From Halobacterium jilantaiense (GTDB taxonomy: Archaea; Halobacteriota; Halobacteria; Halobacteriales; Halobacteriaceae), in NCBI RefSeq assembly GCF_900110535.1, contig NZ_FOJA01000001.1, forward strand, positions 682,001-746,000: a stretch of DNA of 64,000 nt, written 5' to 3'. Under the pieces are notes generated by a model. It saw nothing but the letters and a program-made list of their open reading frames with translations. It was not told the origin of the DNA and made no database searches. Of this stretch, positions 445-19,859 are shown piece by piece. The translations under genes were made by a program, and so were the position numbers. Positions within the stretch are counted from its first letter, which is position 1, and every line of letters starts with the position of its first letter.

Positions 445-1206
445 GTGCACACCGAGACGACAGACGGCGTCCGCCGCATCACGTTCGACCGGCCGGACGT
501 CATGAACGCGTTCACGACCGAAGTGGCAGCCGACCTCGCGGCCGAACTGGAAGCCGTCGACCCCGAGACCTACGACGCAGTCGTGCTCGCTGGCGAGGGC
601 CCGGCGTTCTCCGCGGGCGGCGACGTGCAGACGATGGCGGAGCGCGACGGCACCGTTCGGGACTACTACGAGACCGTCGAGGACTCCTTCGGTCGGCTCG
701 CCGAGGCCGCGATGGACGCCCGCGTCCCACTCGTCGCGAAGGTGGACGGGGACGCCGTCGGGGCCGGCCTCGCGCTCGTCGCGCTCTCGGACTTCGCGTA
801 CGCCACCCCGGACACCCGGTTCTCGTGTGCGTTCGTCCGCGTGGGCCTGATTCCCGACACGGGCGGCAGCTACCTCCTCCCGAAGCTCGTCGGCCTGCGC
901 GCGGCCAAGCGGCTGGCGTTCACGGCGGAGTTCGTCGACGCCGCCGAGGCCGCCGACCTCGGCCTCGTCAACGAGGCCGTCCCGGAGGACGAACTGGACG
1001 CCACAATCGAGGCCCTGCTCGACACGCTCCGAGCGCGCCCCACCGAGACCATCGGCATCATCCGGCAGGCGCTCCACGACAACCTCGGGAAGGAGTGGGG
1101 CGACGCCCTCGACCACGAGAATCTCCTCCAGAGCCACGCCTACGACACCGACGAACACGAGGAAGGTGTCTCGGCGTTCCTCAACGGTCGAGAACCGGAG
1201 TTCTGA
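445..1206 (+). CDS. Enoyl-CoA hydratase/isomerase family protein, PaaG-like
   Basis: A 253-residue crotonase-fold protein of normal family length. The oxyanion-hole segments are visible (FSAGGDVQTM near residue 55 and DAVGAGLALVALSD near 100). The first catalytic Glu of true hydratases (GGGxEL) is replaced by Ala, while the GLIPDTGGSYLLPKLVG segment carries the Asp typical of PaaG-type isomerases. It is therefore more likely a CoA-ester isomerase or ring epoxide isomerase than a plain hydratase; the substrate is unknown. The GTG start at 445 lies about 28 nt after a TTATC box near 417, fitting a leaderless transcript. It stands alone but near other acyl-CoA genes. Confidence 0.85.
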   Translation: MHTETTDGVRRITFDRPDVMNAFTTEVAADLAAELEAVDPETYDAVVLAGEGPAFSAGGDVQTMAERDGTVRDYYETVEDSFGRLAEAAMDARVPLVAKVDGDAVGAGLALVALSDFAYATPDTRFSCAFVRVGLIPDTGGSYLLPKLVGLRAAKRLAFTAEFVDAAEAADLGLVNEAVPEDELDATIEALLDTLRARPTETIGIIRQALHDNLGKEWGDALDHENLLQSHAYDTDEHEEGVSAFLNGREPEF

Positions 1207-1225
1207 GCGAACCGTCGGGCCGTCG

Positions 1226-1810: not shown

Positions 1811-1873
1811 GAGGGGTTCGACTCGACTGAGCCGTAAGTACGGTGTGGGTCGTTCGCGGGCGACGAGACCGCC

Positions 1874-5632: not shown

Positions 5633-7458
5633 CGGTCCTCCATCGGGACGGAGACATCCGATTCCCGGGCTTCGTCGAGTGCGTCCTCGTAGCCGGCGTC
5701 TGCGTGCCGAATCACGCCCATTCCGGGGTCAGTGGTGAACACGCGGCGGGCCTTCTCGGCGGCGAGGTCCGTGCCGTCGAGGACGACGTGGTTGTTCGTG
5801 TGCAGCGAGTTCCCGATGCCGACGCCGCCGCCGTCGTGGACGCTCACGATGTCCGCGCCCGCGGCGGTGTTCAGCAGCGCGTTCAGAATCGGCCAGTCGG
5901 CGACCGCGTCCGTACCGTCCTGCATGGCCTCCGTCTCGCGGTTCGGACTGGCGACGCTGCCGGCGTCGAGGTGGTCCCGCGTGACGACGACGGGAGCCTC
6001 GATTTCGCCGTCCGCGACGAGGTCGTTGATTCGGAGGGCGAAGCGAGCGCGCTCGGTGAGGCTGGCTTCGGCGGTTTCACCGCCTCCGTCACGAGACTCC
6101 CGCGGAGTCTCGCCGTCGTCACTCTGGTACCCCAGCCAGCACACCCGGCTCGGGAGCCCCTGGAACTGCACCTGCTCCTGCGCGAGGTCGATCCAGCGGT
6201 GGAGGTCGTCCTTCTCGGGGAATAGCTCTTTGACGGCCTCGTCGGTGCGGTGGATGTCCTCGGGGTTCCCGGAGAGCGCGACCCACCGGAACGGCCCCTT
6301 CCCGCGGCAGAACAGCGGCCGGATGTACGCCGGGACGAACCCCGGGAAGTCGAAGGGGTCGTGGGTCTCGCCGGCGGTCGTGGTCACGTCACCCCGGTGG
6401 TCGTCGACCTGCCCGCGGATGTTGTTCCCGTACTCGAAGGCGACCGCGCCCTCGTCCTGCATCGCGAGGATGGCGGCGACGTGGCGCGCCATCGTGTCCA
6501 TCGACGCCTCGCGGTACGCGTCGGGGTCGTCGTCGCGCAGTTCGTCGGCCTCCGCGACGGTGTAGCCGCTCGGGTAGTACCCCTCCAGTTCGTCGTGGGC
6601 GCTCGTCTGGTCGGTGACCACGTCCGGCACGAAGCCGCGGTCGAGCATCCCCTCCAGCACGTCCGCGGCGTTCCCGTGGACGCCCACGGAGTAGGGTTCG
6701 CCGGCCTCGGCAGCGTCTTCGGCTCGCCGAATCGCCTCGTCGAGGTCGTCGGTCTTCTCCATGCAGTAGCCCGTCTCGATGCGGCGGTCGATGCGGTCCT
6801 CGTCGACCTCGGCGGCGATGCAGACGCCGTGGTTCATCGTGACCGCGAGCGGCTGCGCGCCCCCCATCCCGCCGAGTCCCGCGGTCACGACGGTCTTCCC
6901 GCGGAGGCCGTCGTTGTCCGGGTAGTGCTCGCGCGCGAGCTCGGCGAGCGTCTCGAAGGTCCCCTGGATGATGCCCTGTGTGCCGATGTACGCCCACGAG
7001 CCCGCCGTCATCTGGCCGTACATGATTTTCCCGTCGGCTTCGAGTTCGTGGAAGTGCTCCCAGTTGTCCCAGTTCCCGACGAGATTCGAGTTCGCGATGA
7101 GGACGCTGGGCGCGCGCTCGTGGGTGTCGAAGACGCCGACCGGCTTCCCGGACTGCACCAGCAGCGTCTCGGTGTCCTCTAGGCTCCGGAGTTCGTCGAG
7201 GATGGCGTCGTAGGCGTCCCACGAACGCGCCGCGCGGCCCGTCCCGCCGTAGACGACGAGGTCCTCGGGCTTCTCGGCGACCTCCGGGTCGAGGTTGTTG
7301 TTCAGCATGCGGAGGGCTGCCTCCTGCCGCCAGCCCTCGCACTCGGTGTCGGTGCCGGTCGGCGCTCCCCGGTAGGACTCCCACTCGGGGGACGGCTCGC
7401 CCACCTCGAAGTCTGCGTCTGGCGCGTCCATGCCCACACGTTCGGCGACGAGTCCCAT
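5629..7458 (-). CDS. hutU: Urocanate hydratase HutU
   Basis: Converts urocanate to 4-imidazolone-5-propionate using tightly bound NAD+. Signatures present include [26 protein letters not shown], the dinucleotide site [45 protein letters not shown] and [11 protein letters not shown]. At ~609 residues it exceeds the usual ~555. The main excess is a ~20-residue acidic/Arg insertion at about 448-470 ([19 protein letters not shown]), whose DNA forms two adjacent hairpins. I chose ATG 7458, about 31 nt from the shared TATA-like element; GTG 7473 and ATG 7431 are alternatives. It is the first gene of the hutUGIH operon. Confidence 0.96.
6070..6112. repeat. Two tandem hairpins inside hutU insertion
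   Basis: At 6070-6084 the arms GGCGGT and ACCGCC flank TTC. At 6092-6112 the 9-bp arms CGAGACTCC and GGAGTCTCG flank CGC. Both are perfect and both have 3-nt loops. Together they encode the peptide insertion (about residues 449-464) that is absent from the typical urocanase core sequence. Confidence 0.65.
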
Positions 7459-7484
7459 AGGCGTACACCCCACCTCACGACGGG

Positions 7485-7494
7485 TTATTTATCA
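7485..7494. promoter_or_regulatory. Shared divergent TATA-like element, hutU / hut-linked regulator
   Basis: TTATTTATCA is the only AT-rich block in the short space between the divergent genes. Its centre is about 25 nt from the regulator GTG (7515) and about 31 nt from the hutU ATG (7458), suitable as box A in both directions. Any regulator bound here would affect both promoters. Confidence 0.55.
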
Positions 7495-7514
7495 GTGAGG
7501 CGGGAAAGGCGTCC

Positions 7515-8141
7515 GTGCAGCAGGCGACGTTCCGGCTGGCCGGCGGTAACGCGTACGCCGCCGCGACGGCCGACACGGACGCGAGAATGCGGCTCTGGTG
7601 CAACGACCACTGCGACCTCCTCGACGTCCGCGGCGAGGGTGCCGACGGCGTGCTCGAAGCCGTCGACGCCGACGTCGGCGTCCGCGAACGCGTCGACGAG
7701 GGGGACACGACGCTGGCGGTCACCGACGCCTGCCTGCGGGCCGAGTCGGACGGCGTCGAGGACACGCTCGCCGCCCACGGCTGCCTCCTCGTGCCGCCGC
7801 TGACGTACGCCGACGGCGAGAAACACCTCCGCGTGCTGGCGCTCGCTCCGGAGTCACTGACCGCGGTGTACCACGACCTCCGCGCCGACTACGACGTCAC
7901 GGTCGCCGACAAGCAGACCGTGAGCGCGCCGCAGTCGGCCGCGCCGGGCGAGTCCGCCCCGGACCTCACCGCTCGGCAGGCGGCCGTGCTTCGCGCGGCC
8001 GTCGAGTCCGGCTACTACGACCGCCCCCGGGAGACGACGACGGCGGCTCTCGCGGAGCGCTTCGGCCTCGCTCGCTCCACGCTCGAAGAACACCTGCGGC
8101 GCGCCGAGGGGAAGGTCGCGCGCGCCGCGCTCCAGCGGTAG
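7515..8141 (+). CDS. Bat-type HTH_10 transcriptional regulator, probable hut regulator
   Basis: A 208-residue protein. The C-terminal ~60 residues form the haloarchaeal HTH_10 (bat-like) DNA-binding domain: LTARQAAVLRAAVESGYYD, then LAERFGLARSTLEEHLRRAE. The N-terminal ~140 residues are the variable sensory part typical of short family members and have no PAS or GAF signature I can name. It is divergent from hutU and shares its 40-nt promoter region, so control of histidine utilisation is the likely role, by position. The GTG start is set by the upstream TATA-like box. Confidence 0.88.
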   Translation: MQQATFRLAGGNAYAAATADTDARMRLWCNDHCDLLDVRGEGADGVLEAVDADVGVRERVDEGDTTLAVTDACLRAESDGVEDTLAAHGCLLVPPLTYADGEKHLRVLALAPESLTAVYHDLRADYDVTVADKQTVSAPQSAAPGESAPDLTARQAAVLRAAVESGYYDRPRETTTAALAERFGLARSTLEEHLRRAEGKVARAALQR

Positions 8142-8153
8142 CGCAACGCTTCT

Positions 8154-8172
8154 GTCTCCGGCCGCCGGAGAC
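8154..8172. repeat. Intergenic hairpin (8-bp stem, 3-nt loop)
   Basis: Arms GTCTCCGG and CCGGAGAC flank CCG. It sits 13 nt after the regulator stop codon and directly abuts the GTG of the next gene. It could act as a weak terminator, as an operator over the start site, or belong to the short-hairpin class also seen in hutH and hutU. Confidence 0.55.
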
Positions 8173-8607
8173 GTGGACGTGCGCAGATTCGTCGCCGCAG
8201 TCGTCGCGGGCGTACTCGTTCAGGCGGCAGTGCTGGCGACGTTCCGGGAACTCCCCCCGCGCCTCCCGCCCACGTCGGTCACGGCGTTCCGCGTGTTCTT
8301 CGTCGGCGTCCTCGGCGGGTACGTCGCGGCCCAGTTCGCGGTCCGCCGGCCCCGGGCCGCAGCCATCGCGGCCGGAGTGAGCGTGGGCGTCGGCGTCGGC
8401 GCGGCGTTCTGGTGGGCGGTGCTGTACGGCGACACCGTCGGCGTCGTCCGCCACCTCCACTACGCGCTGGCGACGGCCGGCGTCCCCGGTCGCCTGATTC
8501 GGGACGTCCCGCGGCTCGTGGTCGCGGCCGCGGCGCTGGTGGTCGCGGCGGCGTTCGCGTTCGGCGGCTCGCTCGGCGGGTGGACGGCGACCGCCGGTCC
8601 GGACTGA
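8173..8607 (+). CDS. Hypothetical membrane protein
   Basis: A 144-residue protein with four predicted transmembrane helices (about residues 4-20, 37-55, 60-80 and 110-135), rich in Ala and Val. No family motif is recognised. The GTG start directly follows an intergenic hairpin; the frame upstream is blocked by the regulator gene end. It may be co-transcribed with the preceding regulator, since the gap is only 31 nt. Confidence 0.7.
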   Translation: MDVRRFVAAVVAGVLVQAAVLATFRELPPRLPPTSVTAFRVFFVGVLGGYVAAQFAVRRPRAAAIAAGVSVGVGVGAAFWWAVLYGDTVGVVRHLHYALATAGVPGRLIRDVPRLVVAAAALVVAAAFAFGGSLGGWTATAGPD

Positions 8608-8631
8608 CGCCGGCGCTCGCTGCGCCAGCAG

Positions 8632-8832
8632 TCAGGCGGTGCGTCTGGCGAGTTCGTACACCACGCCCGCGGGGGCGAGCACCGCCAGCAGGACGAAGGT
8701 GATATCGCCGGTCGTGGGGGCGTTCTTCGCGGTGGACGCGTACGCGTAGAGTACCCCGGTCGCCAGCACGCCGACGACGGTGGCGACGTACCGCGGGTCG
8801 TCCCACTCGGCGGGGAAGTCCGAGGGTGCCAT
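8632..8832 (-). CDS. Small membrane protein (66 aa)
   Basis: Starts MAPSDFPAEWDDPRY and contains two hydrophobic helices (about residues 15-33 and 40-58), ending in a basic tail. An upstream in-frame GTG at 8859 would add nine residues, but the ATG at 8832 gives the more typical small haloarchaeal membrane protein N-terminus. The 3' end lies 25 nt from the convergent gene. Function unknown. Confidence 0.6.
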   Translation of the reverse strand: MAPSDFPAEWDDPRYVATVVGVLATGVLYAYASTAKNAPTTGDITFVLLAVLAPAGVVYELARRTA

Positions 8833-8895
8833 GCGCGGGGGTAGCTCGGGGCGGTGCAAGAAGATTGCTCTCGTTTGCAGCCAGCGTTATCCGGG

Positions 8896-9768
8896 CTACA
8901 GCCCGAGGAAGTCTTCGGCGTTCTCCCAGAGCAGCTTCCGGTAGACGTCGTCGCTGTAGTCGGTGTGTTCGGCGAACGAGTCCAGCCACTCCTCTGGCCG
9001 AATCATCGGGTAGTCGGTGCCGAACATCACGTCGTCCTGGAGGACGCTGCCGGCGTACTGCAACACCTGGTCGTCGATGTACTTCGGGAGCCAGCCGGAG
9101 AGGTCCATCTTGACGTTGCCCTTCTGCTGGCAGATGGCAAGCTGTTCTTGCTCCCACGGGAACGCCGGGTGGGCGATGAGTATCTGGAGCTCGGGGTGTT
9201 CGGCGGCCACGTCGTCGAGCAGCATCGGGTTCCCGTGTTTGACTTTGAGCCCGCGGCCCCCGGGCGCGCCCGCGCCGAGCGTGGAGTTCCCGCCGTGGAA
9301 CACGCAGGGGACACCGAGGTCCTCGATGGCGTCCCAGAGGTCGTCGTGTTCGGGGTCGCTCGGGTCGAAGCCCTGCGCGATCTGCTGGAACTTGAACCCG
9401 GAGAGACCGAGGTCCTCGACGGCCCGGTAGGCCTCCTCGACGCAGTCGTCCTTGAGCGGGTCGACGGACGCGAACCCGACGAAGAACTCGGGGTGGTCGT
9501 CCCGAATCTCGGCGACGTAGTCGTTCGGCACCGGCGGGTTCCCGGTGTTCGTCTCGGCGTCCCAGCCGAGCAGGACGGCGCGGCCGACGCCCGCGTCGCG
9601 GTACTCCTCGACCATCGCCTCGTAGTCCCAGGTCTCCATCTCGGAGCCGAACTTCGCCGCGGCGTCCGCCATCATCTGGCCGCCCGCGTCCTCAAGGAAC
9701 TCGGCGGTCGGCTGGTGGGCGTGCGTGTCGACGGCGCGCTCCTCCGCGAGCAGGTCGGCGAGTGCCAT
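8896..9768 (-). CDS. Amidohydrolase family protein (amidohydrolase_2 / TIM-barrel)
   Basis: A 290-residue metal-dependent hydrolase or decarboxylase-type barrel. The metal site VDTHAHQ gives His16 and His18, LIAHPAFPW supplies a further His near residue 197, and MFGTDYPM carries the late Asp. The C-terminal WENAEDFLGL is the usual family ending. Members act on ring-cleavage products, lactones or aromatic acids; the substrate here is unknown. Promoter box CTTTATCAC near 9796 lies 28 nt from ATG 9768. Its promoter and first 11 codons are duplicated at 10360-10481. Confidence 0.85.
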   Translation of the reverse strand: MALADLLAEERAVDTHAHQPTAEFLEDAGGQMMADAAAKFGSEMETWDYEAMVEEYRDAGVGRAVLLGWDAETNTGNPPVPNDYVAEIRDDHPEFFVGFASVDPLKDDCVEEAYRAVEDLGLSGFKFQQIAQGFDPSDPEHDDLWDAIEDLGVPCVFHGGNSTLGAGAPGGRGLKVKHGNPMLLDDVAAEHPELQILIAHPAFPWEQEQLAICQQKGNVKMDLSGWLPKYIDDQVLQYAGSVLQDDVMFGTDYPMIRPEEWLDSFAEHTDYSDDVYRKLLWENAEDFLGL

Positions 9769-9837
9769 GCTACCGAGTGGGTAGCCGGCCGTGATAAAGC
9801 CACCCCGGGGCGCGGAGACGGCGGCCGCGCACGCGGG

Positions 9838-10257
9838 CTACGCGAACCGCCGGTAGCCGGCGTACGCGAGGAGGACGACGCCGCCCGCGAGCGACCCGAG
9901 CGTGCGGAGGAGCGGAGTCATGCCCATCACGTGGATGGTGTGCTCGTACTGCACGAAGTACGTCTCGTTCTGGTAGGTGATGTCTTCGCTCGTCAGACCG
10001 TTGCTGTCGGGGAACGGGATGTTCTCCGGGCGCTCCTGACCCGTGTACTCGACGCTGCCGTTCGACGCGAGCGCGGCGTCGAACGCGCGCTGGGTGCCTG
10101 CGGAGAGCTCGTCGTAGGGAGCCGGGTCGGAGGGGTACTCCTCTGTCTGGACCGTGACTGTGTACGTGTCGGGCGGACTGGTGGCGGGCGCGATGAGGAA
10201 CGAGCCCAGCAGCAGCAAGCCGACGACTGCGGGGAGGGCAGTGCGGACTTGGACCAT
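9838..10257 (-). CDS. Hypothetical exported/membrane protein with N- and C-terminal helices
   Basis: A 139-residue protein with an N-terminal signal-anchor (about residues 8-26), a ~75-residue extracytoplasmic part with NGS and NET sequons, and a C-terminal helix ending in GYRRFA. The topology suggests a small surface-exposed protein tethered at both ends. A CACTTTACAC box lies about 26 nt upstream of ATG 10257. A copy of its last codons (RRFA-stop) is found at 10462-10476. Confidence 0.65.
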   Translation of the reverse strand: MVQVRTALPAVVGLLLLGSFLIAPATSPPDTYTVTVQTEEYPSDPAPYDELSAGTQRAFDAALASNGSVEYTGQERPENIPFPDSNGLTSEDITYQNETYFVQYEHTIHVMGMTPLLRTLGSLAGGVVLLAYAGYRRFA

Positions 10258-10342
10258 GTCGATGGCGTCGCAAGGGCGTGTAAAGTGTTTGTTCGTTTCG
10301 CTCGCCTTCGTCGGGAGGAGTCGGCCGCGGCGGCTGGCGTCG

Positions 10343-10393
10343 TTACTCGCTGTCGCCGTCGCGCTGCTCCGCGAGCAGGTCGGCGAGTGCCAT
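10343..10393 (-). pseudogene. Truncated duplicate of the 5' end of the amidohydrolase gene
   Basis: From ATG 10393 the frame reads MALADLLAE like the intact gene at 9768, then diverges and stops after 16 codons (QRDGDSE). The upstream TATA region (CTTTATC) and the CTCGGTAGC leader are also conserved. It is a remnant of a duplication; the 16-residue peptide is probably not functional, but the promoter may still be active. Confidence 0.7.
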
Positions 10394-10481
10394 GCTACCG
10401 AGTAGGTGGCCGGACCCGATAAAGCCGCCCCGAGGCGGGGAGACGACAGCGACGGACCGGGCTACGCGAACCGCCGCTATC
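10360..10481 (-). repeat. Partial duplication of 9738-9855 (gene end, promoter, gene start)
   Basis: This block aligns with 9738-9855 along its length with scattered substitutions. It includes the RRFA-stop codons of the upstream-type gene (10462-10476), the CTTTATC box, the CTCGGTAGC leader and the first codons of the amidohydrolase. It shows a former tandem copy of the gene junction, now interrupted by the lipoprotein gene upstream. Confidence 0.75.
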
Positions 10482-10977
10482 CGTCCGCCGCGTCGAAGTC
10501 CCAGACGCCGTCGACGGAGTGAACCGTCAGGGACGTGCCGTCCGAGGACACCGTGACCGCGCTGTGGACCTGCACGCGGTTGAAGTTCTCGCGGGTCGTC
10601 GCGACGTTGAAGCTGCCGACGGACTCGCCGTCGTCGGCCCACCCGGGGCTGGTGACGCCGACTATGTACCGCACGGACTCGAACTGGTCAGTGAGCGTCT
10701 CGTGGAGGGCATCCGAGACAGTCGGTTTCCGCGGCACCGGGAAGTGGGCCGCCCAGTCCTCCTCGAGGCGGGTCAGCTCTGGACCCGTGTCGTTCTCGTA
10801 GGTCGCCTCGATGTCGATAATCGTGTCGTACGCGGACTCGCTCGACTCGGTTTCGCGGGCCTGTATCGTCTTCAGTTGCACGTACCCTTCGACGCGCTCG
10901 CGTGAGTCGAGGCAGCCTGCGAGCGCGACGGGAACGCCGACTCCGGCGGCACGTAGGAACGTTCGTCTGGAGGGCAT
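10477..10977 (-). CDS. Tat-type lipoprotein of unknown function
   Basis: A 166-residue protein beginning MPSRRTFLRAAGVGVPVALAGC: twin arginines, a hydrophobic stretch and a lipobox with Cys22, so it is likely exported folded and lipid-anchored. The mature domain is acidic and beta-rich with no recognised motif. Its stop codon lies directly against the duplicated gene-end remnant, so its 3' end may mark the recombination joint. Function unknown. Confidence 0.75.
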   Translation of the reverse strand: MPSRRTFLRAAGVGVPVALAGCLDSRERVEGYVQLKTIQARETESSESAYDTIIDIEATYENDTGPELTRLEEDWAAHFPVPRKPTVSDALHETLTDQFESVRYIVGVTSPGWADDGESVGSFNVATTRENFNRVQVHSAVTVSSDGTSLTVHSVDGVWDFDAADG

Positions 10978-11066
10978 CGACCGCCCGATTCGGGGCGCGA
11001 CGACGAGTATCTTGTGCGTTCGCCAGGCAGCGGTGACGGCAGTTCGTGTGGTCGTGCCGTCGCCCG

Positions 11067-11534
11067 CTACTCGCCGTCGTCGCGCTTCACGAGGAACTTC
11101 ATGTCCCCCTGAAAGACGGTCTCGTCGTGCTGGTTCGTCATCTCCGTGTCGATGGTGACGAGGCCGGCGTCCTCCCGGGAGGAGAGTTCCTTCGTCTCAG
11201 TGACCTCCATGTCCAGCGAGATGGTGTCGTCCATCTTCACCGGCGCGGGGATGTCCATGTAGTTCATGCCGAGGAAGGCGACGACAGTGCGCTCGAGGAA
11301 GCCACACCGGTAGACGAACCCGGTGGCGAGCACGAACGTCATCGGGCCGTGGGCGACGCGCTCGCCGAACTCCTGGTCGTCGGCGTACTCCGCGTTCGAG
11401 TGGAGTTCCGTCCAGTCGCCCGTGAACATCGAGTGCATCGTGAAGTCCGACTCGGTCACGGTGCGGCCGACGCTCTCGAAGGTCTGTCCCGCCTCGAAGT
11501 CCTCGAAGTGGTGGGGTCGGTAGCTGTATGGCAC
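11067..11534 (-). CDS. MaoC/FAS1-like hot-dog dehydratase
   Basis: A 155-residue single hot-dog domain of MaoC type. The hydratase motif appears as FTGDWTELHSNAEYA followed by FGERVAHGPMTF, matching the catalytic Asp/His pattern of (R)-specific enoyl-CoA hydratases and mesaconyl-type dehydratases. Length fits the family. GTG 11534 is preferred because ATAATTAT at 11560-11567 lies 28-30 nt upstream and the sequence upstream of the GTG is not protein-like. Near the PaaK-type ligase it probably acts on acyl-CoA esters; the substrate is unknown. Confidence 0.85.
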   Translation of the reverse strand: MPYSYRPHHFEDFEAGQTFESVGRTVTESDFTMHSMFTGDWTELHSNAEYADDQEFGERVAHGPMTFVLATGFVYRCGFLERTVVAFLGMNYMDIPAPVKMDDTISLDMEVTETKELSSREDAGLVTIDTEMTNQHDETVFQGDMKFLVKRDDGE

Positions 11535-11563
11535 ACCCCCACCGACGCCCGAGGCCCAGATAA

Positions 11564-11950
11564 TTATGCAGGGTCGTTGGTGAGGGTCCGGGCGGCGAAC
11601 GACCCGAGAATCCAGACGGCGGCGAACGACAGAATGGGGGCGACCGGGTCCCCGGCGACGGCTCGCACTGCGGTCACGACGCCGGCGTACGACAGCGACG
11701 CGACGACCGCACCCACCGCACCCCAGGCGACCGCTCGCCCCCGGGATTCGAAGGGGCGCTGCCACTGGTCGCGGCCGAATCCCGGCACGGCGACCCCCGA
11801 CAGCAACACGACGAAGTAGCCGTCGGTGTCCCCGGGCAGCGTCTCGAAGGCGACGGCACCCGCGACGAGCGCGACGACGACTGCGCCGGCCGTCACGGCG
11901 AAGTCGGCGCTCCCGAGGTACGCCCGGAAGCGGGCTGCGAGTGAACTCAT
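11564..11950 (-). CDS. Hypothetical membrane protein
   Basis: Starts at ATG 11950 (MSSLAARFRAYLGSADFAV), 128 residues, with about four hydrophobic helices (residues ~18-35, 45-60, 75-95 and 103-122). An upstream in-frame start at 11986 would add 12 residues. It lies between the MaoC-type and PaaK-type genes on the same strand with a 29-nt gap to the MaoC gene. No family is recognised. Confidence 0.65.
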   Translation of the reverse strand: MSSLAARFRAYLGSADFAVTAGAVVVALVAGAVAFETLPGDTDGYFVVLLSGVAVPGFGRDQWQRPFESRGRAVAWGAVGAVVASLSYAGVVTAVRAVAGDPVAPILSFAAVWILGSFAARTLTNDPA

Positions 11951-11993
11951 TGCCACGACGTGCTCGCGCCGGTCGCTTGAACCCACCGACGCG

Positions 11994-13277
11994 TCAGCGG
12001 TGGTCGAAGACGCGCTTGACCTTCCCGGTGGCCTGCCGGTCGATGCTGTTCGGCGGCGCGACGGTGAGCTCGTCGGGCGTGAACGACAGCACGCTGGACA
12101 GCCGCGACAGCAGGTCGTCGTGGAGCGCGTCGGTGTCGCCGTCGAAGCACGGGTCGGTCTCGACCGTGACCTCGATGCGGTCGAGTTCGTGCTCTCGGTA
12201 GAGGTCGATGCGGTAGTGCGGCGCGACGCCCTCGGTGTCGAGAGCGACGGCCTCGATTTCGCTCGGGTAGCAGTTCACGCCGCGCACGATGAGCAGGTCG
12301 TCGGTGCGGCCGGTGACGTTGTCCATGCGGACCGTGGTGCGGCCGCACTCGCACTCGCCGGACGTGAGCGTCGTCATGTCCCCGGTCCGGTAGCGCAGCA
12401 CGGGCAGCGCCTCCTTCGAGAGCGTCGTGAGGACGAGTTCGCCCTCCTCGCCCTCGGGCAGCACCTCGCCGGTGTCGGGGTCGATTACCTCCGGGTAGAA
12501 GTGGTCGTCCCAGACGTGGAGGCCGTCCTTGGCGTCGACGCACTCGACGGCGACGCCCGGCCCGATGATCTCCGAGAGCCCGTAGATGTCGACGCCGTCG
12601 GCGTCCAGTCGCTGTTCGATGGCGTCCCGCATCGGGTCGGTGCAGGGCTCCGCGCCGAACACGACCGTCGACAGCGGGAGGTCCGCGAGGTCCACGCCGC
12701 GCTCGTCCGCGTGCTCGGCGAGGTAGAGCGCGTACGACGGCGTGCAGGTGAGCACGTCGCTGCCGAGGTCTTCGAGGAAGTCGAGCTGGCGGTCGGTGTT
12801 CCCGCCGCCGATGGGAATCAGCTCCGAGCCGAGGCGTTCAGCGCCGGCGTGGATGCCCAGCCCGCCCGTGAACAGCCCGTAGCCGTAGGCGTTCTGGACG
12901 GTGTCCGTCCCGGTGACGCCGGCGGCCCGCAGGGAGCGCGCCGACACCTCCGCCCAGACGTCGAGGTCCGACTGCGTGTAGCCGACAATCTTTGGTTTGC
13001 CGGTGGTGCCCGAGGAGGCGTGGACGCGGGCGACGTCTTCCCGAGGCACCGCGAACAGGCCGTCCGGGTAGGTGTCCCGGAAGTCCGCTTTCGTCGTCGT
13101 CGGGAGCTTCGGGGCGTCGGCGACGCCGTCGACGTCGTCGGGGTGGACGCCGGCGTCGTCCATCGCCGTCCGGTAGAAGGGGACGTTCTCGTAGGCGTGC
13201 TCGACCGTGTCTCGGAAGCGTTCGTTCTGTAGTGTTCGGCGCTCGTCCGGCGGGGCGCACTCGATGTCCGTGGGCAT
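11994..13277 (-). CDS. Phenylacetate-CoA ligase family (PaaK-like) AMP-forming CoA ligase
   Basis: A 427-residue adenylate-forming enzyme of the compact PaaK type, joining CoA to an aryl- or carboxylic acid with ATP. The P-loop appears as HASSGTTGKPKIVGYT near residue 90, with later motifs IYGLSEIIGPG, HVWDDHFYPEV, RYRTGD and GRTDDLLIVRGVNCYPSEIE, and the C-terminal TGKVKRV lysine. ATG 13277 lies about 28 nt from an AACTATCG box. It is divergent from the thiolase gene and adjacent to a MaoC-type hydratase, suggesting activation of an unknown acid for beta-oxidation-like breakdown. Confidence 0.92.
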   Translation of the reverse strand: MPTDIECAPPDERRTLQNERFRDTVEHAYENVPFYRTAMDDAGVHPDDVDGVADAPKLPTTTKADFRDTYPDGLFAVPREDVARVHASSGTTGKPKIVGYTQSDLDVWAEVSARSLRAAGVTGTDTVQNAYGYGLFTGGLGIHAGAERLGSELIPIGGGNTDRQLDFLEDLGSDVLTCTPSYALYLAEHADERGVDLADLPLSTVVFGAEPCTDPMRDAIEQRLDADGVDIYGLSEIIGPGVAVECVDAKDGLHVWDDHFYPEVIDPDTGEVLPEGEEGELVLTTLSKEALPVLRYRTGDMTTLTSGECECGRTTVRMDNVTGRTDDLLIVRGVNCYPSEIEAVALDTEGVAPHYRIDLYREHELDRIEVTVETDPCFDGDTDALHDDLLSRLSSVLSFTPDELTVAPPNSIDRQATGKVKRVFDHR

Positions 13278-13351
13278 CGGTACCACAGGCGTCGCGGCCC
13301 CCGATAGTTCTTCGGGGGAAGATTATGAGGGAGGGCGGAGAACTCCGAAAC

Positions 13352-14536
13352 ATGCGAGACGCGTACGTCGTCGGGGCGGGCCAGACCGACTTCGGGTCGT
13401 TCCCCGACGAGTCCTACCGGTCGCTGTTCGCCACGGCCGTCGACCGAACGCTGGCGAGTGCCGACGGCCTCTGCCGCGGAGACGTCGACGAAGCAGTCGT
13501 CGGCACGCTCGGCGTCGGCGGCCGCCAACTCGGGCTCTCGGGGCCGGCCGTCACCGAGTTCGCCGGCCTCTCGGTCCCGACAACGAGAGTGGAGAACGCC
13601 TGCGCCGCGAGCGGCTACGCCGTCAGGAACGCCGTGCAGGCGGTGAAGTCGGGGATGGCTGACGTCGTCCTCGCGGGCGGCTACGAGGTGATGACCGACG
13701 CCAGCGACGACGCGACGAAGTACTGGCTCGGCGTCAGCGGCGAGACCGAGTGGGAACGACTCACCGGGACGACGTTCGCGGGGACGTACGCCCAGATGGC
13801 TCGCGCGTACCTCGACGAGTACGACGACGCCACCGTCGACGACCTCTCCAGGGCGGCCGTGAAGAACCACGCCAACGCCAGCGAGAACCCCCACGCGCAA
13901 CTCCGCTTCGAGTGCAGCCTCGACGACGCCACCGACGCCGCGACGGTCGCGGACCCCCTCACGCTCTATCACTGCTGTCCGACGACGGACGGTGCTGCCG
14001 CCGTTCTCGTCGTCAGTGAGGACGTGGCCGAGGACCACTCGACCCTCGACGCCGCCCGGGTCGCCGGCGTCGGCGCTGCAAGCGACCGCGTCGGGCTGTT
14101 CGAGCGCGACACCTACACCGCGATTCCCGCGAGCGAGCGCGCCGCCGAGTCGGCCTACGAGATGGCCGACCGCGGCCCCGACGACGTCGACTTCGCGGAG
14201 GTCCACGACTGCTTCGCCATCGCGGAGCTGCTGGCCTACGAGGACCTCGGCTTCTGCGAGCGCGGCGACGCGCCGGCGCTGCTCCGCGACGGCGTCACCG
14301 AGCGCGACGGCCGCCTCCCCGTGAACGTCTCGGGCGGCCTGAAGGCCAAAGGCCACCCCATCGGTGCCACCGGTGCCGGGCAGGTCGCGGAGCTCTGGAA
14401 ACAGCTCACCGGGCGCGCCGGCGACCGACAGCTCGACGGCCCCGAGGTCGGGCTCGCGCACAACGTCGGCGGGAGCGGCGGCGCGGCCGTCGTGACGATT
14501 CTGGAGGGCGACGCCGACCGGGAGGGGAAGCGATGA
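13352..14536 (+). CDS. Thiolase family protein (acetyl-CoA acetyltransferase, SCP-x type)
   Basis: A 394-residue archaeal thiolase. Catalytic residues are visible: nucleophile Cys84 in VENACAASGYA, His285 in EVHDCF and His335 in KGHPIGATG. ATG 13352 lies 28 nt after AGATTATGA (13319-13327); ATG 13325 is an in-frame alternative. The stop overlaps the next gene by 4 nt (ATGA), which encodes a ketoacyl-synthase/DUF35 protein. This is the arrangement known from archaeal thiolase/HMG-CoA synthase/DUF35 complexes. Likely role: thiolytic cleavage or Claisen condensation of acyl-CoA. Confidence 0.92.
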   Translation: MRDAYVVGAGQTDFGSFPDESYRSLFATAVDRTLASADGLCRGDVDEAVVGTLGVGGRQLGLSGPAVTEFAGLSVPTTRVENACAASGYAVRNAVQAVKSGMADVVLAGGYEVMTDASDDATKYWLGVSGETEWERLTGTTFAGTYAQMARAYLDEYDDATVDDLSRAAVKNHANASENPHAQLRFECSLDDATDAATVADPLTLYHCCPTTDGAAAVLVVSEDVAEDHSTLDAARVAGVGAASDRVGLFERDTYTAIPASERAAESAYEMADRGPDDVDFAEVHDCFAIAELLAYEDLGFCERGDAPALLRDGVTERDGRLPVNVSGGLKAKGHPIGATGAGQVAELWKQLTGRAGDRQLDGPEVGLAHNVGGSGGAAVVTILEGDADREGKR

Positions 14537-15954
14537 GGGTCGCGGGCGTCGGAGCCTACGTCCCCCGGTTCCGGCTCCCGACCGACGCAATCGCGGACGC
14601 GCTCGGGCAGTGTCACGCCCGCGGCGTCGAGGCGGTCGCGGTCCCGGACGCCGACGAGGACGCGCTCACGATGGCGGCCGAAGCCGGCGAGCGCGCGCTC
14701 GACGCGGCCGGTCTCGACCCCGAGTCCGTCGACGCGCTCCACCTCGCGTCGACGACGCTTCCCTACGAGGAGGAGGCGGGAACGAGTCGGCTGCGCAGCC
14801 TGCTCGGCCTCGGCGAACACACGGAGAGCGCGCAGTTCGGCGGGAGCACGGACGCCGGCGGCGCGGCGCTCGCGGCGGGGCTGGAGCGCGACGCGCCGAC
14901 GCTCGTCGTCGCCAGCGACACGCCTCAAGGCATCGACGACGAGGCGCTCGGCCACGCCGCCGGTGCCGGTGCGGCGGCTGTCGTCCTCGACCGCGACGGC
15001 CCCGGCCGGGTGGCGGGGCGGGGGAGCCGGACGACGACGAACCCCGGCACCCGGTTCCGGGAGCGCGGGAGCGCCCAGACGACCGGGCTCGGCGTCACGA
15101 GCTACGACCGGCAGGCGTTCCGCGAGACGCTCGCCGGTGCGGTCGAGGGCCTCGATACGAGCGGCGTCGACGCGGCCGCGCTCCAGGCACCCGACGGCGA
15201 CCTGCCGTACCGAGTGGCTGGCGCGCTCGGCCTCGACACCGACACAGTCGCCGCCGGCAGCGTCGTCGAGCGGGTCGGCGACGCGGGTGCAGCGAGCGCG
15301 CTGCTCGGCCTCGCCGGTGCGCTCCGGGACGGGGCTCGGAGCGTGCTGCTGGCGACCCACGGGAGCGGCGCGGCGAGCCACGCGTTCCGCGTCGTCGCCG
15401 AGCGCGGGATTCCAGTCCGCGCCACCGTCGCGGGGGACCGAGAGCTGTCGTTCGCCGGTGCGCGCCGCCGACGCGGGGACTTCGACTCGGGGCCGCCGGC
15501 GGGTGGCGGTGCGTCCGTCAGCGTCCCCTCGTATCGGCGCACGCTCGCGGCCCGCCACCGGCTCGTCGCGGGGCGCTGCCGGTCGTGTTCGGCGCTCCGA
15601 TTCCCGCCGGAGGGTGCCTGCGGCGACTGCGGGGCGACGGACGGCTACGAGGACGCGCCGCTTCGGACCCGGGGCACCGTCGAGACGAGTACGACCATCT
15701 CGCAGGGCGGCGCGCCGCCAGAGTTCGCGCCCCAGCAGGCGCGCAGCGGCGAGTACGGCAGCGCCATCGTCTCGTTCGAGGGCCGCGGTGAGGGGAGCGG
15801 CGAGGTCAGCGTTCCCGTCCAGGTCGTGCTCGCGGACGGGGACACCCCCGGCATCGGGGACGAAGTGGTGGTCGTGCCCCGCGTGCTGTACGACCAGGAG
15901 GGCGTCCGGCGGTACGGCGCGAAGGCGGTGCCCGCGGACTCGCGGCGGGGCTGA
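14533..15954 (+). CDS. HMG-CoA-synthase-like ketoacyl-synthase domain fused to zinc-ribbon DUF35 (OB-fold), catalytic Cys missing
   Basis: A 473-residue two-domain protein. Residues ~1-330 have the KAS-III/HMG-CoA synthase fold (VAGVGAYVPRFRLP start, ASDTPQG, HGSGAASHAF). Residues ~345-473 are a DUF35 module: a zinc ribbon (CRSC...CGDC) and an OB-fold. The nucleophile position reads QFGGSTDAGG, and the only Cys outside the ribbon is Cys27, so normal synthase chemistry is unlikely. In archaeal complexes DUF35 bridges thiolase and HMG-CoA synthase at a shared CoA site. Here it may scaffold the overlapping upstream thiolase. The true HMG-CoA synthase should lie elsewhere. Confidence 0.85.
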   Translation: MRVAGVGAYVPRFRLPTDAIADALGQCHARGVEAVAVPDADEDALTMAAEAGERALDAAGLDPESVDALHLASTTLPYEEEAGTSRLRSLLGLGEHTESAQFGGSTDAGGAALAAGLERDAPTLVVASDTPQGIDDEALGHAAGAGAAAVVLDRDGPGRVAGRGSRTTTNPGTRFRERGSAQTTGLGVTSYDRQAFRETLAGAVEGLDTSGVDAAALQAPDGDLPYRVAGALGLDTDTVAAGSVVERVGDAGAASALLGLAGALRDGARSVLLATHGSGAASHAFRVVAERGIPVRATVAGDRELSFAGARRRRGDFDSGPPAGGGASVSVPSYRRTLAARHRLVAGRCRSCSALRFPPEGACGDCGATDGYEDAPLRTRGTVETSTTISQGGAPPEFAPQQARSGEYGSAIVSFEGRGEGSGEVSVPVQVVLADGDTPGIGDEVVVVPRVLYDQEGVRRYGAKAVPADSRRG

Positions 15955-16013
15955 CGGCCCCGCGTGGCGGACCGCAACCCCTTAGAGGGGGCGGCGGCGT
16001 ACGGAGTGAGGGA

Positions 16014-17309
16014 ATGACGCTACTGAGCGCCGACACCGTGGTTCGGGACGCCGACAGCGTGCTCCACGACGGGGCCGTGGTCGTCGAGGACGACCGGATT
16101 GCGGCGGTCGGCGACCGCGACGACCTGACCGACGCCTACCCCGACCACGAGCGCGTCGACGTGGACGTGCTCGCGCCGGGGCTCGTGGGCGCGCACGTCC
16201 ACTCCGTGCAGAGTCTCGGGCGGGGCATCGCGGACGACCAGGAGCTGCTGGACTGGCTGTTCGACCACGTGCTCCCGATGGAGGCGTCGATGGGGGCCGA
16301 GGAGATGCGGGCGGCCGCCGATCTCGCGTACCTGGAGTTCGTGGAGTCCGGGACGACGGGCGTCGTCGACCACCTCTCGGTCGACCACGCAGGCGAGGCG
16401 TTCGCCGCGGCCGCAGACAGCGGCGTGCGCGCCCGCCTCGGGAAGGTCTTGATGGACAAGGACTCGCCGGAGGGCCTGCTGGAGGACACCGACGAGGCGC
16501 TCGCTGAGACCGAGTCGCTCATCAGAGAGTGGGACGGCGCTCGCGGCGGCCGCATCCAGTACGCCGTCACGCCCCGGTTCGCCGTCTCCTGCACGGAGGC
16601 GTGCTTGCGGGGCTGCCGCGACCTCGCCGACGAGTACGGCGTCCGCATCCACACGCACGCCAGCGAGAACCAGGGCGAAATCGAGACCGTTGAGGACGAG
16701 ACCGGCAAGCGGAACGTCCACTGGCTGGACGAGGTCGGGCTGACGGGCGAGGACGTGGTGCTCGCGCACTGCGTGTGGACCGACGAGAGCGAACGCGAAC
16801 TGCTCGCCGAGACGGGGACCCACGTGACGCACTGCCCGTCCTCGAACATGAAACTCGCGTCGGGCGTCGCCCCCATCGAGGACTACCTCGACCGCGGTAT
16901 CAACGTCGCGCTCGGCAACGACGGCCCGCCCTGTAACAACACCCTCGATGCCTTCACCGAGATGCGGCAGGCCAGCCTGCTCGGGAAAGTCGAGGAACTC
17001 GACCCGACGGCGCTGGCGGCACGCACCGTCTTCGAGATGGCGACCCGGAACGGCGCGAAAGCGGCAGGATTCGAGGACGCGGGACGCATCGCCGAGGGCT
17101 GGAAAGCCGACGTGGTCGGTCTCACCACGGAGAACGCGCGGTCGACGCCCATCCACGACCCGTACTCGCACCTCGTGTACGCCGCCCACGGCGACGACGT
17201 GACGCTGACGATGGTGGACGGCGACGTGCTCTACCGCGGCGGCGAGCACGTCCGGATGGACGCCGAGAGCGTTCGGGAGCGCGCGCGAGAATTCGCCGCC
17301 GAACTCTGA
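16014..17309 (+). CDS. Amidohydrolase, deaminase/chlorohydrolase (TrzA/AtzB, MtaD) family
   Basis: A 431-residue cyclic amidohydrolase. Zn ligands are His61 and His63 (GAHVHSVQS), the His of THASENQG, the His of LAHCVW and the Asp of LGNDGPPCNN. The family includes 5'-deoxyadenosine/SAH deaminase, guanine deaminase and chlorohydrolases. The THASEN and GNDGPPCNN signatures favour the deaminase/chlorohydrolase group, but the substrate cannot be read from sequence. It follows the thiolase/DUF35 pair by 59 nt with its own CTTAGAGG box, so it is probably a separate transcript. Confidence 0.87.
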   Translation: MTLLSADTVVRDADSVLHDGAVVVEDDRIAAVGDRDDLTDAYPDHERVDVDVLAPGLVGAHVHSVQSLGRGIADDQELLDWLFDHVLPMEASMGAEEMRAAADLAYLEFVESGTTGVVDHLSVDHAGEAFAAAADSGVRARLGKVLMDKDSPEGLLEDTDEALAETESLIREWDGARGGRIQYAVTPRFAVSCTEACLRGCRDLADEYGVRIHTHASENQGEIETVEDETGKRNVHWLDEVGLTGEDVVLAHCVWTDESERELLAETGTHVTHCPSSNMKLASGVAPIEDYLDRGINVALGNDGPPCNNTLDAFTEMRQASLLGKVEELDPTALAARTVFEMATRNGAKAAGFEDAGRIAEGWKADVVGLTTENARSTPIHDPYSHLVYAAHGDDVTLTMVDGDVLYRGGEHVRMDAESVRERAREFAAEL

Positions 17310-18123: not shown

Positions 18124-18162
18124 CGGTCCACCTTTTTGACGGGGCGCGCGGTACCTCGTGGC

Positions 18163-19050
18163 ATGCACGTAGCAGTACTCGGCGCGGGAACGATGGGGCA
18201 CGGCATCGCCCAGGTGTCGGCGATGGCGGGCCACGACGTGACGCTCCGAGACGTGGACGAGGACGTTGTCGGCGAGGGCGTCGACGCAATCGACGAGAAC
18301 CTCCGGGGCGGCGTCGAACGGGGGAAAGTCACGCCCGAAGAACGGGAGGCGGCGCTGGCCCGCATCACGGGGACGACCGACCTCGCCGAGGCGGTGTCGG
18401 AGGCCGACCTCGTCGTGGAGGCGGTCCCGGAGGACGTCGAACTCAAACGGGACGTGCTCGGTGAAGCCGAGGACGCAGCGCCAGCGGACGCCGTCCTCGC
18501 GTCGAACACGTCCAGTCTCCCCGTCACGGAGATTGCGGCCGCCCTCGACGCGCCCGAGCGGTTCGTCGGGCTCCACTTCTTCAACCCGGTCCACATCATG
18601 GCGCTGGTGGAAGTCGTCGTCGCCGAGCAGACCAGCGACGAGACCCTCGACTTCGCGGCCGAGTTCGTCGACGGTATCGAGAAGACGCCCGTCGAGGTCG
18701 CTGACTCGCCCGGGTTCGCGTCCTCGCGGCTCGGCGTCTCGCTGGGCGTGGAGGCGATGCGGATGCTTCAGGAGGGCGTCGCCAGTCCCCGAGACGTGGA
18801 CCAGGCGATGGAACTCGGCTACAACCACCCGATGGGGCCGGTCGAACTCGGAGACGTTGTCGGGCTGGACGTGCGACTGGACATCCTCGAACACCTCCGT
18901 GACGAACTCGGCGAGCGGTTCCGGCCGCCCCAGATACTCAAGCGCAAGGTCCGCGCGGGCAAACTCGGGAAGAAGACCGGCGAGGGGTTCTACGTCTGGG
19001 AGGACGGGGAAAGAGTCGGCGTCTCGGGCGACTGGGGTGACGACGCGTGA
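18163..19050 (+). CDS. 3-hydroxyacyl-CoA dehydrogenase
   Basis: A 295-residue NAD-dependent enzyme that oxidises 3-hydroxyacyl-CoA in beta-oxidation. The N-terminal Rossmann motif is VLGAGTMGHGIAQVSAMAG, and the catalytic region SNTSSLPVTEIA and GLHFFNPVHIMALVEVV carries the conserved His-Asn pattern. The C-terminal domain contains the family segments DSPGFASSR, ELGYNHPMGPVEL and GKKTGEGFYVW. ATG 18163 follows a CCTTTTTGAC box. Its stop overlaps the next gene's GTG by 4 nt, so dehydrogenase and hydratase are translated together. Confidence 0.95.
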   Translation: MHVAVLGAGTMGHGIAQVSAMAGHDVTLRDVDEDVVGEGVDAIDENLRGGVERGKVTPEEREAALARITGTTDLAEAVSEADLVVEAVPEDVELKRDVLGEAEDAAPADAVLASNTSSLPVTEIAAALDAPERFVGLHFFNPVHIMALVEVVVAEQTSDETLDFAAEFVDGIEKTPVEVADSPGFASSRLGVSLGVEAMRMLQEGVASPRDVDQAMELGYNHPMGPVELGDVVGLDVRLDILEHLRDELGERFRPPQILKRKVRAGKLGKKTGEGFYVWEDGERVGVSGDWGDDA

Positions 19051-19859
19051 CCGAGTCGCCGAGTGCGGCAGCAGCCGACTGCGAGTTCGTCGCCGTCACC
19101 GAGGACGACCCCGAACAGGTCGTCACCGTCACCATCGACCGACCCGACGCGAGAAACGCCCTGAACGGACAGGTCCGCGAGGAGCTGACGCGGGTCTGTG
19201 CGGCGGTCGACGACAGCGGGTTCCGGGTCGTCGTGCTGACCGGGAGCGACGAGTCGGGCGCGTTCGTCGCGGGCGCGGACGTGACCGAACTCCGGGAGCG
19301 CGACGCCGTCGAGCAGCGCCGCGCGAGCGAGCGCCCCCGGGTGTACGAGACGGTTGAGTCGCTCCGCCAGCCCGTCATCGCGCGCCTCAACGGCCACGCG
19401 CTCGGCGGCGGGCTCGAACTGGCGCTCGCCTGCGACATCCGGGTCGCCCACGCGGACGCGAAACTCGGCAGCCCCGAAATCAATCTGGGCATCATTCCGG
19501 GCGGCGGCGCGACCCAGCGCCTCCCCCGGCTGGTCGGGGAGGGCCAGGCGATGAAGCTCGTGCTGACCGGCGACCTAGTCGACGCCGACGAAGCCGAGGA
19601 CATCGGACTCGTCGAGGACGTCCACGGCGACGAAGCGTTCGACGACGCCGTCAGCGACCTCGCGGCGTCGATGGCGGACCACAGCCCGCTCGCGCTCGAA
19701 CGCGGGAAGGACGCGGTGAAGGCAGCCGGCCGCATGGACCTGGAGTCCGGCATCGAGTACGAGGCCGAGCTGTTCGCCGGCCTGTTCGCGACCGCCGACA
19801 AGGACGAGGGCATCGACGCCTTCCTCGAGGGCCGCGAGCCCGACTGGCAGAGCCGCTGA
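19047..19859 (+). CDS. Enoyl-CoA hydratase
   Basis: A 270-residue crotonase with both catalytic Glu residues: GHALGGGLELALACD and SPEINLGIIPGGGATQRL. It is thus a bona fide hydratase, unlike the PaaG-like copy at 445. The oxyanion hole segment is FVAGADVTEL. The GTG start at 19047 overlaps the dehydrogenase stop (GTGA). With the upstream dehydrogenase it supplies two consecutive beta-oxidation steps. Confidence 0.95.
   Translation: MTESPSAAAADCEFVAVTEDDPEQVVTVTIDRPDARNALNGQVREELTRVCAAVDDSGFRVVVLTGSDESGAFVAGADVTELRERDAVEQRRASERPRVYETVESLRQPVIARLNGHALGGGLELALACDIRVAHADAKLGSPEINLGIIPGGGATQRLPRLVGEGQAMKLVLTGDLVDADEAEDIGLVEDVHGDEAFDDAVSDLAASMADHSPLALERGKDAVKAAGRMDLESGIEYEAELFAGLFATADKDEGIDAFLEGREPDWQSR

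Follow-up and report, generated by a model that had tools for sequence, protein, structure and literature searches.

A synthase-like protein without its catalytic residues, fused to DUF35 and paired with a thiolase: a candidate for haloarchaeal phenylacetate breakdown

The subject of this study is a 64,000-nucleotide stretch of the Halobacterium jilantaiense genome (assembly GCF_900110535.1, contig NZ_FOJA01000001.1, positions 682,001 to 746,000 of the forward strand), hereafter referred to as the window. It carries an SCP2-type thiolase gene followed by a reading frame in which a domain resembling 3-hydroxy-3-methylglutaryl-coenzyme A (HMG-CoA) synthase (HMGCS), here called the ketoacyl-synthase-like (KS) domain, is joined to a DUF35 unit. 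This KS-DUF35 fusion is the main object of the analysis, and the features at the locus are as follows.

13352..14536, + strand: SCP2-type thiolase, 394 amino acids (PF22691, 148.2 bits, cut-off 28; PF00108, 82.6 bits)
14533..15954, + strand: KS-DUF35 fusion, a single 473-amino-acid reading frame
14533..15480, + strand: HMG-CoA-synthase-like (KS) domain, approximately residues 1-316, with the catalytic Cys, Glu and His all gone
14833..14862, + strand: loop QFGGSTDAGG, residues 101-110, standing where the nucleophile loop FACKAG would be
15544..15642, + strand: rubredoxin-like zinc ribbon with Cys349/352/363/366 (PF12172, 33.9 bits)
15643..15933, + strand: OB fold of DUF35 (from a model of residues 330-473 and phmmer)

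The fusion protein and its partner thiolase

A first-pass annotation of this DNA, made from the sequence alone, had described a synthase domain devoid of cysteine except for Cys27, with a nucleophile loop reading QFGGSTDAGG, and fused to DUF35. The window translation agrees: Cys27 stands alone in the synthase domain, the remaining four cysteines of the fusion being those of the zinc ribbon, and the loop is found at the residues given above. The DUF35 unit, composed of the zinc ribbon and the OB fold, forms the final ~140 residues, and its presence is borne out by the PF12172 match and by the structural matches of the OB-fold model. All four ribbon cysteines are intact in 80 of 80 complete rows of the family alignment, and PF12172 is matched by 45 of the 45 members of set A2. 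The OB part is recognized by PF01796 in 27 of these 45 members and not in the window protein, where it was established by phmmer together with modeling of residues 330-473.

The KS domain scores 143.5 bits with the archaeal HMG-CoA synthase model NF003274 (cut-off 244), and the fusion 86.8 bits with TIGR00748 (cut-off 353.35); the phmmer match of the domain to 6esq_I, the HMGCS chain of the archaeal thiolase/HMGCS/DUF35 complex 6ESQ, has an E value of 3.9e-21. The AlphaFold model of the whole fusion has a mean pLDDT (predicted local distance difference test) of 83.7 and a pTM (predicted template modeling score) of 0.88, and that of residues 330-473 alone a mean pLDDT of 75.9. The best structural match of the full model is again 6esq_I (Z 40.6, root-mean-square deviation 2.2 A, 315 residues aligned), so that the modeled KS domain has the HMGCS fold. 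Next come the PhlA chains (Z 37.9-39.4) and then MucA (Z 35.4), and Foldseek concurs. For the model of residues 330-473, the closest structures are 9vbo_G of MucABC (Z 13.8), 6esq_G (Z 13.5), 5m3k_E of PhlABC (Z 13.3) and 6ok1_B, the DUF35 protein of Ltp2-ChsH2 (Z 12.8), while 6esq_E is the top match by Foldseek. As the KS and DUF35 models both match 6ESQ, PhlABC and MucABC, both parts of the fusion point to three-component thiolase/KS/DUF35 assemblies.

The stop codon of the thiolase gene overlaps the start of the fusion by ATGA, and the thiolase retains its catalytic set (Cys84, His285, His335 and Asn371), which upholds the claim of the first-pass annotation that the fusion overlaps a catalytically intact thiolase gene. 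Family match and catalytic set together identify the partner as an SCP2-type thiolase. The four catalytic residues are conserved in every row covering them (79-80 of 80), the closest phmmer match of the thiolase in the PDB is 6esq_A, the thiolase of 6ESQ (E 2.5e-83), and with NF004720 it reaches 411.6 bits, just short of the cut-off of 420. The thiolase gene lies directly upstream of the fusion in 79 of 80 loci, and the remaining locus (L011) is interrupted by a contig end. Elsewhere in the genome there are two more pairs of an SCP2-type thiolase and a stand-alone DUF35 protein (C1:454915-455657 and 758391-759184), which resemble the two-subunit haloarchaeal ketothiolases.

Loss of the catalytic residues

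Residue counts were based on the best 80 of 106 relatives from genome contigs and the window protein, i.e., 81 haloarchaeal rows. None of them carries Cys at the nucleophile position, which is occupied by Thr in 74, Ala in five, Val in one and Pro in one. The catalytic Glu is likewise absent from all rows (Thr 60, Ser 20, Ala 1), and the catalytic His is replaced in 68 of the 81 (Gln 64, His 13, Tyr 2, Gly 1, Thr 1). In the window protein, the Cys, Glu and His positions are held by Thr106, Thr74 and Gln218, respectively; the canonical archaeal synthases aligned alongside read SESHPY, FACKAG, and FHQPN or FHMPN. The lost Cys therefore aligns with Thr106 of STDAG, for which the family consensus is STRAG, a refinement of the loop assignment in the first-pass annotation.

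For the KS part, the DUF35 part and the thiolase, the ratios of nonsynonymous to synonymous substitution rates (dN/dS) against the closest relative (L003) are 0.28, 0.21 and 0.14, respectively, and the value of 0.28 places the KS domain under purifying selection. Given these dN/dS values and the lack of Cys at the nucleophile position in 80 relatives, the sequence data indicate that the missing catalytic residues reflect neither chance nor decay, and that the fusion represents an old, non-catalytic family under purifying selection.

Could the KS domain still be catalytic through another residue, such as Thr106, Ser105 or a cysteine elsewhere? The broad conservation of STRAG (Thr in 74 of 81 rows, Ser in 71) would favor this, as would the Cys that some relatives carry at column 130 (43/81); a further Cys is found at column 242 in 15/81. 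However, Thr106 is replaced by Ala, Val or Pro in seven rows, the window protein has neither of these additional cysteines and carries Thr at column 130, the Glu is gone and the His is mostly gone. A Thr nucleophile was rejected because Thr106 is not invariant, and residual catalysis by the domain is regarded as very unlikely.

Public labels would make the fusion the HMG-CoA synthase of the mevalonate pathway. This reading is already strongly contradicted and scarcely credible: the catalytic residues are all lost in the window protein, the curated cut-offs are missed (see above), and a separate, intact haloarchaeal HMG-CoA synthase, whose presence the first-pass annotation had proposed to check, is encoded at C1:2520307-2521635 (NF041302, 881 bits, cut-off 800; motif FACIAG). 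The fusion was thereby also rejected as the genome's only HMG-CoA synthase. With Cys and Glu replaced in every row, His in most, the cut-offs missed and an intact HMGCS elsewhere, the suggestion of the first-pass annotation that the synthase partner is a dead scaffold is strongly supported.

The fusion is present in 147 of the 242 haloarchaeal genomes examined. A split form, with thiolase, KS and DUF35 as three genes, is found in Halobaculum and in genomes G078, G230 and G382, and Cys-less KS proteins, fused or single, also occur beyond the haloarchaea within the same phylum (L129, L130-L133, L148). In L130-L133, from another family of the phylum, a fused Cys-less KS-DUF35 precedes a thiolase that reads ENYCATG, and the KS motif is SFRAA. 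In an unrooted tree, a branch with support 99/96 separates all 30 Cys-less rows from nine canonical synthases and the genome's own HMGCS, which is of the bacterial type. When two PhlA fragments are included, the canonical synthases form one group (100/98) and PhlA is nearest to them (97/93), again without a root; the catalytic columns were kept in the alignment for both trees. A single ancient loss of the KS catalytic residues is compatible with these trees, not proved by them.

A mirror image of the window case was observed in three of the nine canonical mevalonate clusters fetched (L137, L138 and L140). There, the thiolase reads EAADASGG, with Asp as the nucleophile residue, versus EAACASGG in the others, and the adjacent HMG-CoA synthase keeps its Cys.

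Linkage to phenylacetate genes

Several neighbors of the pair within the window resemble genes of phenylacetate (paa) catabolism:

11994..13286, - strand: PaaK equivalog (phenylacetate-CoA ligase), transcribed divergently from the thiolase gene (751.9 bits with NF041878 paak_haloarch, cut-off 700)
11067..11498, - strand: MaoC-type hydratase, similar to the C-terminal region of PaaZ (PF01575, 61 bits; TIGR02278 PaaZ, partial, 57 bits, below cut-off)
18136..19050, + strand: 3-hydroxyacyl-CoA dehydrogenase (HADH), PaaH-like (PF02737, 220 bits; PF00725, 111 bits)
19047..19859, + strand: enoyl-CoA hydratase (ECH), best NCBIfam match PaaF (NF007239, 244.6 bits, below the cut-off of 371)
445..1206, + strand: enoyl-CoA hydratase/isomerase, PaaG-like (60% with the PaaG-like counterpart in a compact paa cluster)

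The epoxidase genes paaABCD lie just beyond the window (~G000:C1:677.3-679.8 kb, with PF05138 matches at C1:677771-679718), and paaA/paaC are 17.5 kb from the fusion. The pair is thus located in a paa gene cluster, and in this region the SCP2-type thiolase is the sole thiolase. A histidine-degradation block (window 1874-7473, - strand; hutH identified by PF00221, the other genes by eye) splits paaABCD and paaG from paaK, the thiolase and KS-DUF35, and three further genomes of the genus have hutH at a similar distance from the fusion (12.1-13.5 kb). Regulators of the HTH_10 (bat) type are encoded at window 7515-8141 (+) and at L151 11848-12483 (+). One of the two bears the HVO_A0563 N-terminal domain; the other, oriented divergently from paaA, is present in each of the ten paaABCD regions, which makes it a candidate regulator of haloarchaeal paa genes.

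Across the 242 genomes of the class, PF05138 (PaaA/PaaC) was detected in 130. Both PaaA/PaaC and the fusion are present in 123 genomes, PaaA/PaaC alone in seven, the fusion alone in 24 and neither in 88 (odds ratio 64, Fisher p 1.5e-34). Kinship was handled by counting genera, for which the same table reads 48/1/5/20 (p 1.7e-12). Spacing could be taken for 113 of the 123 genomes with both: fusion and PaaA/PaaC share one contig in 86, lie within 10 kb in 32 and within 20 kb in 50, against a chance expectation of ~1.3 for the last figure under uniform placement. The gene hutH served as the control: its co-occurrence with the fusion has an odds ratio of 11.9, but the two are within 20 kb of each other in only 4 of 93 genomes. 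These four belong to the genus of the window, in which the hut operon is located between the two parts of the paa cluster. Proximity is therefore a stronger sign than co-occurrence.

In G371, the genes of the cluster follow the order paaG-like, regulator, paaA, B, C, D, thioesterase, paaK, thiolase, KS-DUF35, HADH, ECH. When 12 regions were aligned (ten picked for short spacing, the window's own and that of Haloferax mediterranei, a selection that gives no estimate of layout frequency), paaA, B, C and D were found together with the thiolase/fusion pair in ten. In L152, the ligase, PaaB, PaaC, PaaD and the thioesterase PaaI exceed their curated cut-offs, and PaaA falls about one bit short (278.7 vs 280). 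Within 5 kb of the fusion, HADH genes were counted in 28 of 80 loci and ECH genes in 29. A separate clustering of neighbors over the 80 loci mixes true genes with open reading frames in other frames and provides leads only. A second, aromatic-type cluster was noted in L158 (G066, 859-16988), with PaaA/PaaC-like diiron proteins only ~30% like PaaA, a PaaD-like gene, a CoA ligase, a ferredoxin, acyl-CoA and aldehyde dehydrogenases, an alcohol dehydrogenase and UbiD-like genes. Its KS-DUF35 protein belongs to the subfamily that keeps the catalytic His.

An arrangement of this kind has also surfaced in transcriptome data. According to a study on Haloferax alexandrinus DSM 27206 (PMC10694973), cds129-134 encode enoyl-CoA hydratase, paaH, pksG (HMG-CoA synthase), paaJ, paaK and paaI, and pksG is upregulated under silver (log2 3.19 and 3.59) along with paaA-D, paaH, paaI, paaJ and paaK. 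The authors take pksG as an HMG-CoA synthase for membrane biogenesis. The same gene order was found here in another Haloferax alexandrinus strain, and the equation of pksG with the fusion is based on that order. The published HMG-CoA synthase label of the Haloferax gene in this position looks wrong.

Relation to known assemblies and proposed function

All three parts of 6ESQ are homologous to the window genes, and 6ESQ is the best sequence and model match for the KS, the thiolase and, by Foldseek, DUF35; at the window locus, the three components are encoded together. Unlike in the 6ESQ type, the window KS lacks Cys, Glu and His, so there is no active HMGCS to take the thiolase product, KS and DUF35 are fused, the neighborhood is degradative, and the gene order is thiolase-KS-DUF35 rather than HMGCS-thiolase-DUF35. 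PhlABC of Pseudomonas protegens (5M3K, 5MG5) is the nearest precedent for the dead KS. As stated in PMC6392133, PhlA is without the key Cys and Glu of HMGCS and acyl transfer involves PhlC residues only. To this extent the window pair is of the same type, with a dead KS, a live thiolase-type subunit retaining Cys and His, and a DUF35 bridge. However, DUF35 is a separate subunit in PhlABC, which performs a CoA-independent acylation of phenols. MucABC of Streptococcus macacae (9VBO, 9VBT) is also a three-component KS/thiolase/DUF35 system (Z values given above), although it is a bacterial acyltransferase with separate subunits and was compared by fold, not by residues.

Among two-component systems, the benzoylsuccinyl-CoA thiolase BbsAB (7PXP, 7PYT) combines DUF35 with an SCP2-like thiolase that cleaves a CoA ester of an aromatic pathway, as proposed here, but has no KS part. 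In the haloarchaeal alpha-beta ketothiolases BktB/PhaA, described in the review PMC7137286, an SCP2-like thiolase shares a transcript with an OB-fold protein that is required for activity; these enzymes differ in their catalytic Ser-His-His, their biosynthetic role and, likely, the lack of a KS part. The window thiolase carries Cys84 where that triad would require Ser, and Cys is found in 79 of 80 haloarchaeal rows, the other being a gap. A pair of a thiolase and a 126-amino-acid OB-fold protein was seen in Haloferax and was not matched to the BktB/PhaA gene names. Finally, PaaJ shares with the window pair the gene neighborhood and the proposed reaction step, but is a thiolase of the classical family; the structure 1ULQ, called TthPaaJ in PMC9493321, matches the window thiolase only weakly (E 1.1e-6).

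The favored interpretation, considered somewhat probable, is that the pair acts as a scaffolded, PaaJ-like thiolase of haloarchaeal phenylacetate breakdown with the dead KS as a non-catalytic subunit. We infer from its relatives that the KS-DUF35 protein binds the overlapping thiolase in an assembly like 6ESQ or PhlABC. In such a complex, the thiolase alone would perform the chemistry, with Cys84 taking the acyl group in thiolysis, while DUF35 would position CoA at the seam of thiolase and KS. The thiolase dimers would be held together by the dead KS, whose cavity may shape the acyl pocket. Phenylacetate would pass through PaaK, the PaaABCD epoxidase and ring opening, after which the assembly would carry out the thiolysis of the PaaJ step, removing acetyl-CoA from 3-oxo-(dehydro)suberyl-CoA and/or 3-oxoadipyl-CoA, the predicted substrates. 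The first-pass annotation had envisaged a thiolase complex devoted either to acyl-CoA breakdown or to a new condensation. The former is supported and has been narrowed by the paa linkage to the phenylacetate route, and the latter has found no support of its own.

The PaaJ role is moderately, not strongly, supported by the sequence evidence, as several findings weigh against it. The fusion occurs without PaaA/PaaC in 24 of 147 genomes, the two are more than 30 kb apart or on separate contigs in 59 of 113, and just 14 of 80 loci have PaaK at 5 kb or less from the fusion, a count from which PaaK and MaoC matches below 35% identity were left out. The co-occurrence of hutH implies that the co-occurrence of the fusion with paa genes partly reflects metabolic breadth. 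No classical PaaJ model links the window thiolase to the proposed substrate. In addition, a classical thiolase is found in six of 13 regions (L153, L154, L155, L157, L159, L089), although just 4 of 80 loci have one within 5 kb, so that in these regions the PaaJ role need not fall to the SCP2-type thiolase. The notion that paa clusters never contain a thiolase besides the SCP2-type one was rejected on this ground; where both are present, they may divide the two thiolysis steps between them, or the classical enzyme may perform them.

Some of these findings would also suit a general beta-oxidation or aryl-CoA thiolase complex, whose nearness to paa genes would merely reflect catabolic islands. 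The genomes with the fusion and no PaaA/PaaC fit this alternative, as do the weaker co-occurrence of hutH and the His-keeping subfamily, which stands beside another PaaA/PaaC-like diiron pair, a CoA ligase, dehydrogenases and UbiD-like genes (L158, H-type loci). The 50 of 113 genomes with short spacing, compared with 4 of 93 for hutH, and the recurring cluster layout speak against it, and it is judged doubtful, though deserving of consideration. A bond-forming complex, either an acyltransferase of the PhlABC kind or a biosynthetic ketothiolase similar to BktB/PhaA, is less likely still. The acyltransferases PhlABC and MucABC are the closest structural relatives after 6ESQ, PhlA shares the absence of Cys and Glu, and the review PMC7137286 describes haloarchaeal ketothiolases made of two subunits, one of them an OB-fold protein. 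However, the neighbors of the pair (ligase, hydratases, dehydrogenase) are degradative, the two other thiolase/DUF35 pairs of the genome fit the two-subunit layout better, and the window thiolase has Cys in place of the Ser of the Ser-His-His triad reported for BktB/PhaA.

Literature searches, covering CC-licensed papers in PMC, found no paper on the fusion as a thiolase scaffold, and the link to phenylacetate is the new point. The family is labeled HMG-CoA synthase in some records, and an idea about membrane biogenesis has been built on this label in PMC10694973. The family is probably mislabeled, the evidence pointing to the dead scaffold of a catabolic thiolase. More tentatively, and with a good deal of doubt, haloarchaea may have reused an inherited mevalonate-type assembly for phenylacetate, the disabled synthase site being retained as an enclosed space in which the reactive, ring-opened CoA intermediate is kept for the thiolase. 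This would amount to a scaffolded PaaJ unlike the bacterial ones, with another HMG-CoA synthase taking over isoprenoid synthesis. A 2026 survey describes archaeal phenylacetate pathways as incomplete (PMC13186573), and the thiolase/KS-DUF35 pair provides a concrete candidate for one missing step. The fusion would also be a second, archaeal case, next to PhlA, of a catalytically dead KS retained as a scaffold.

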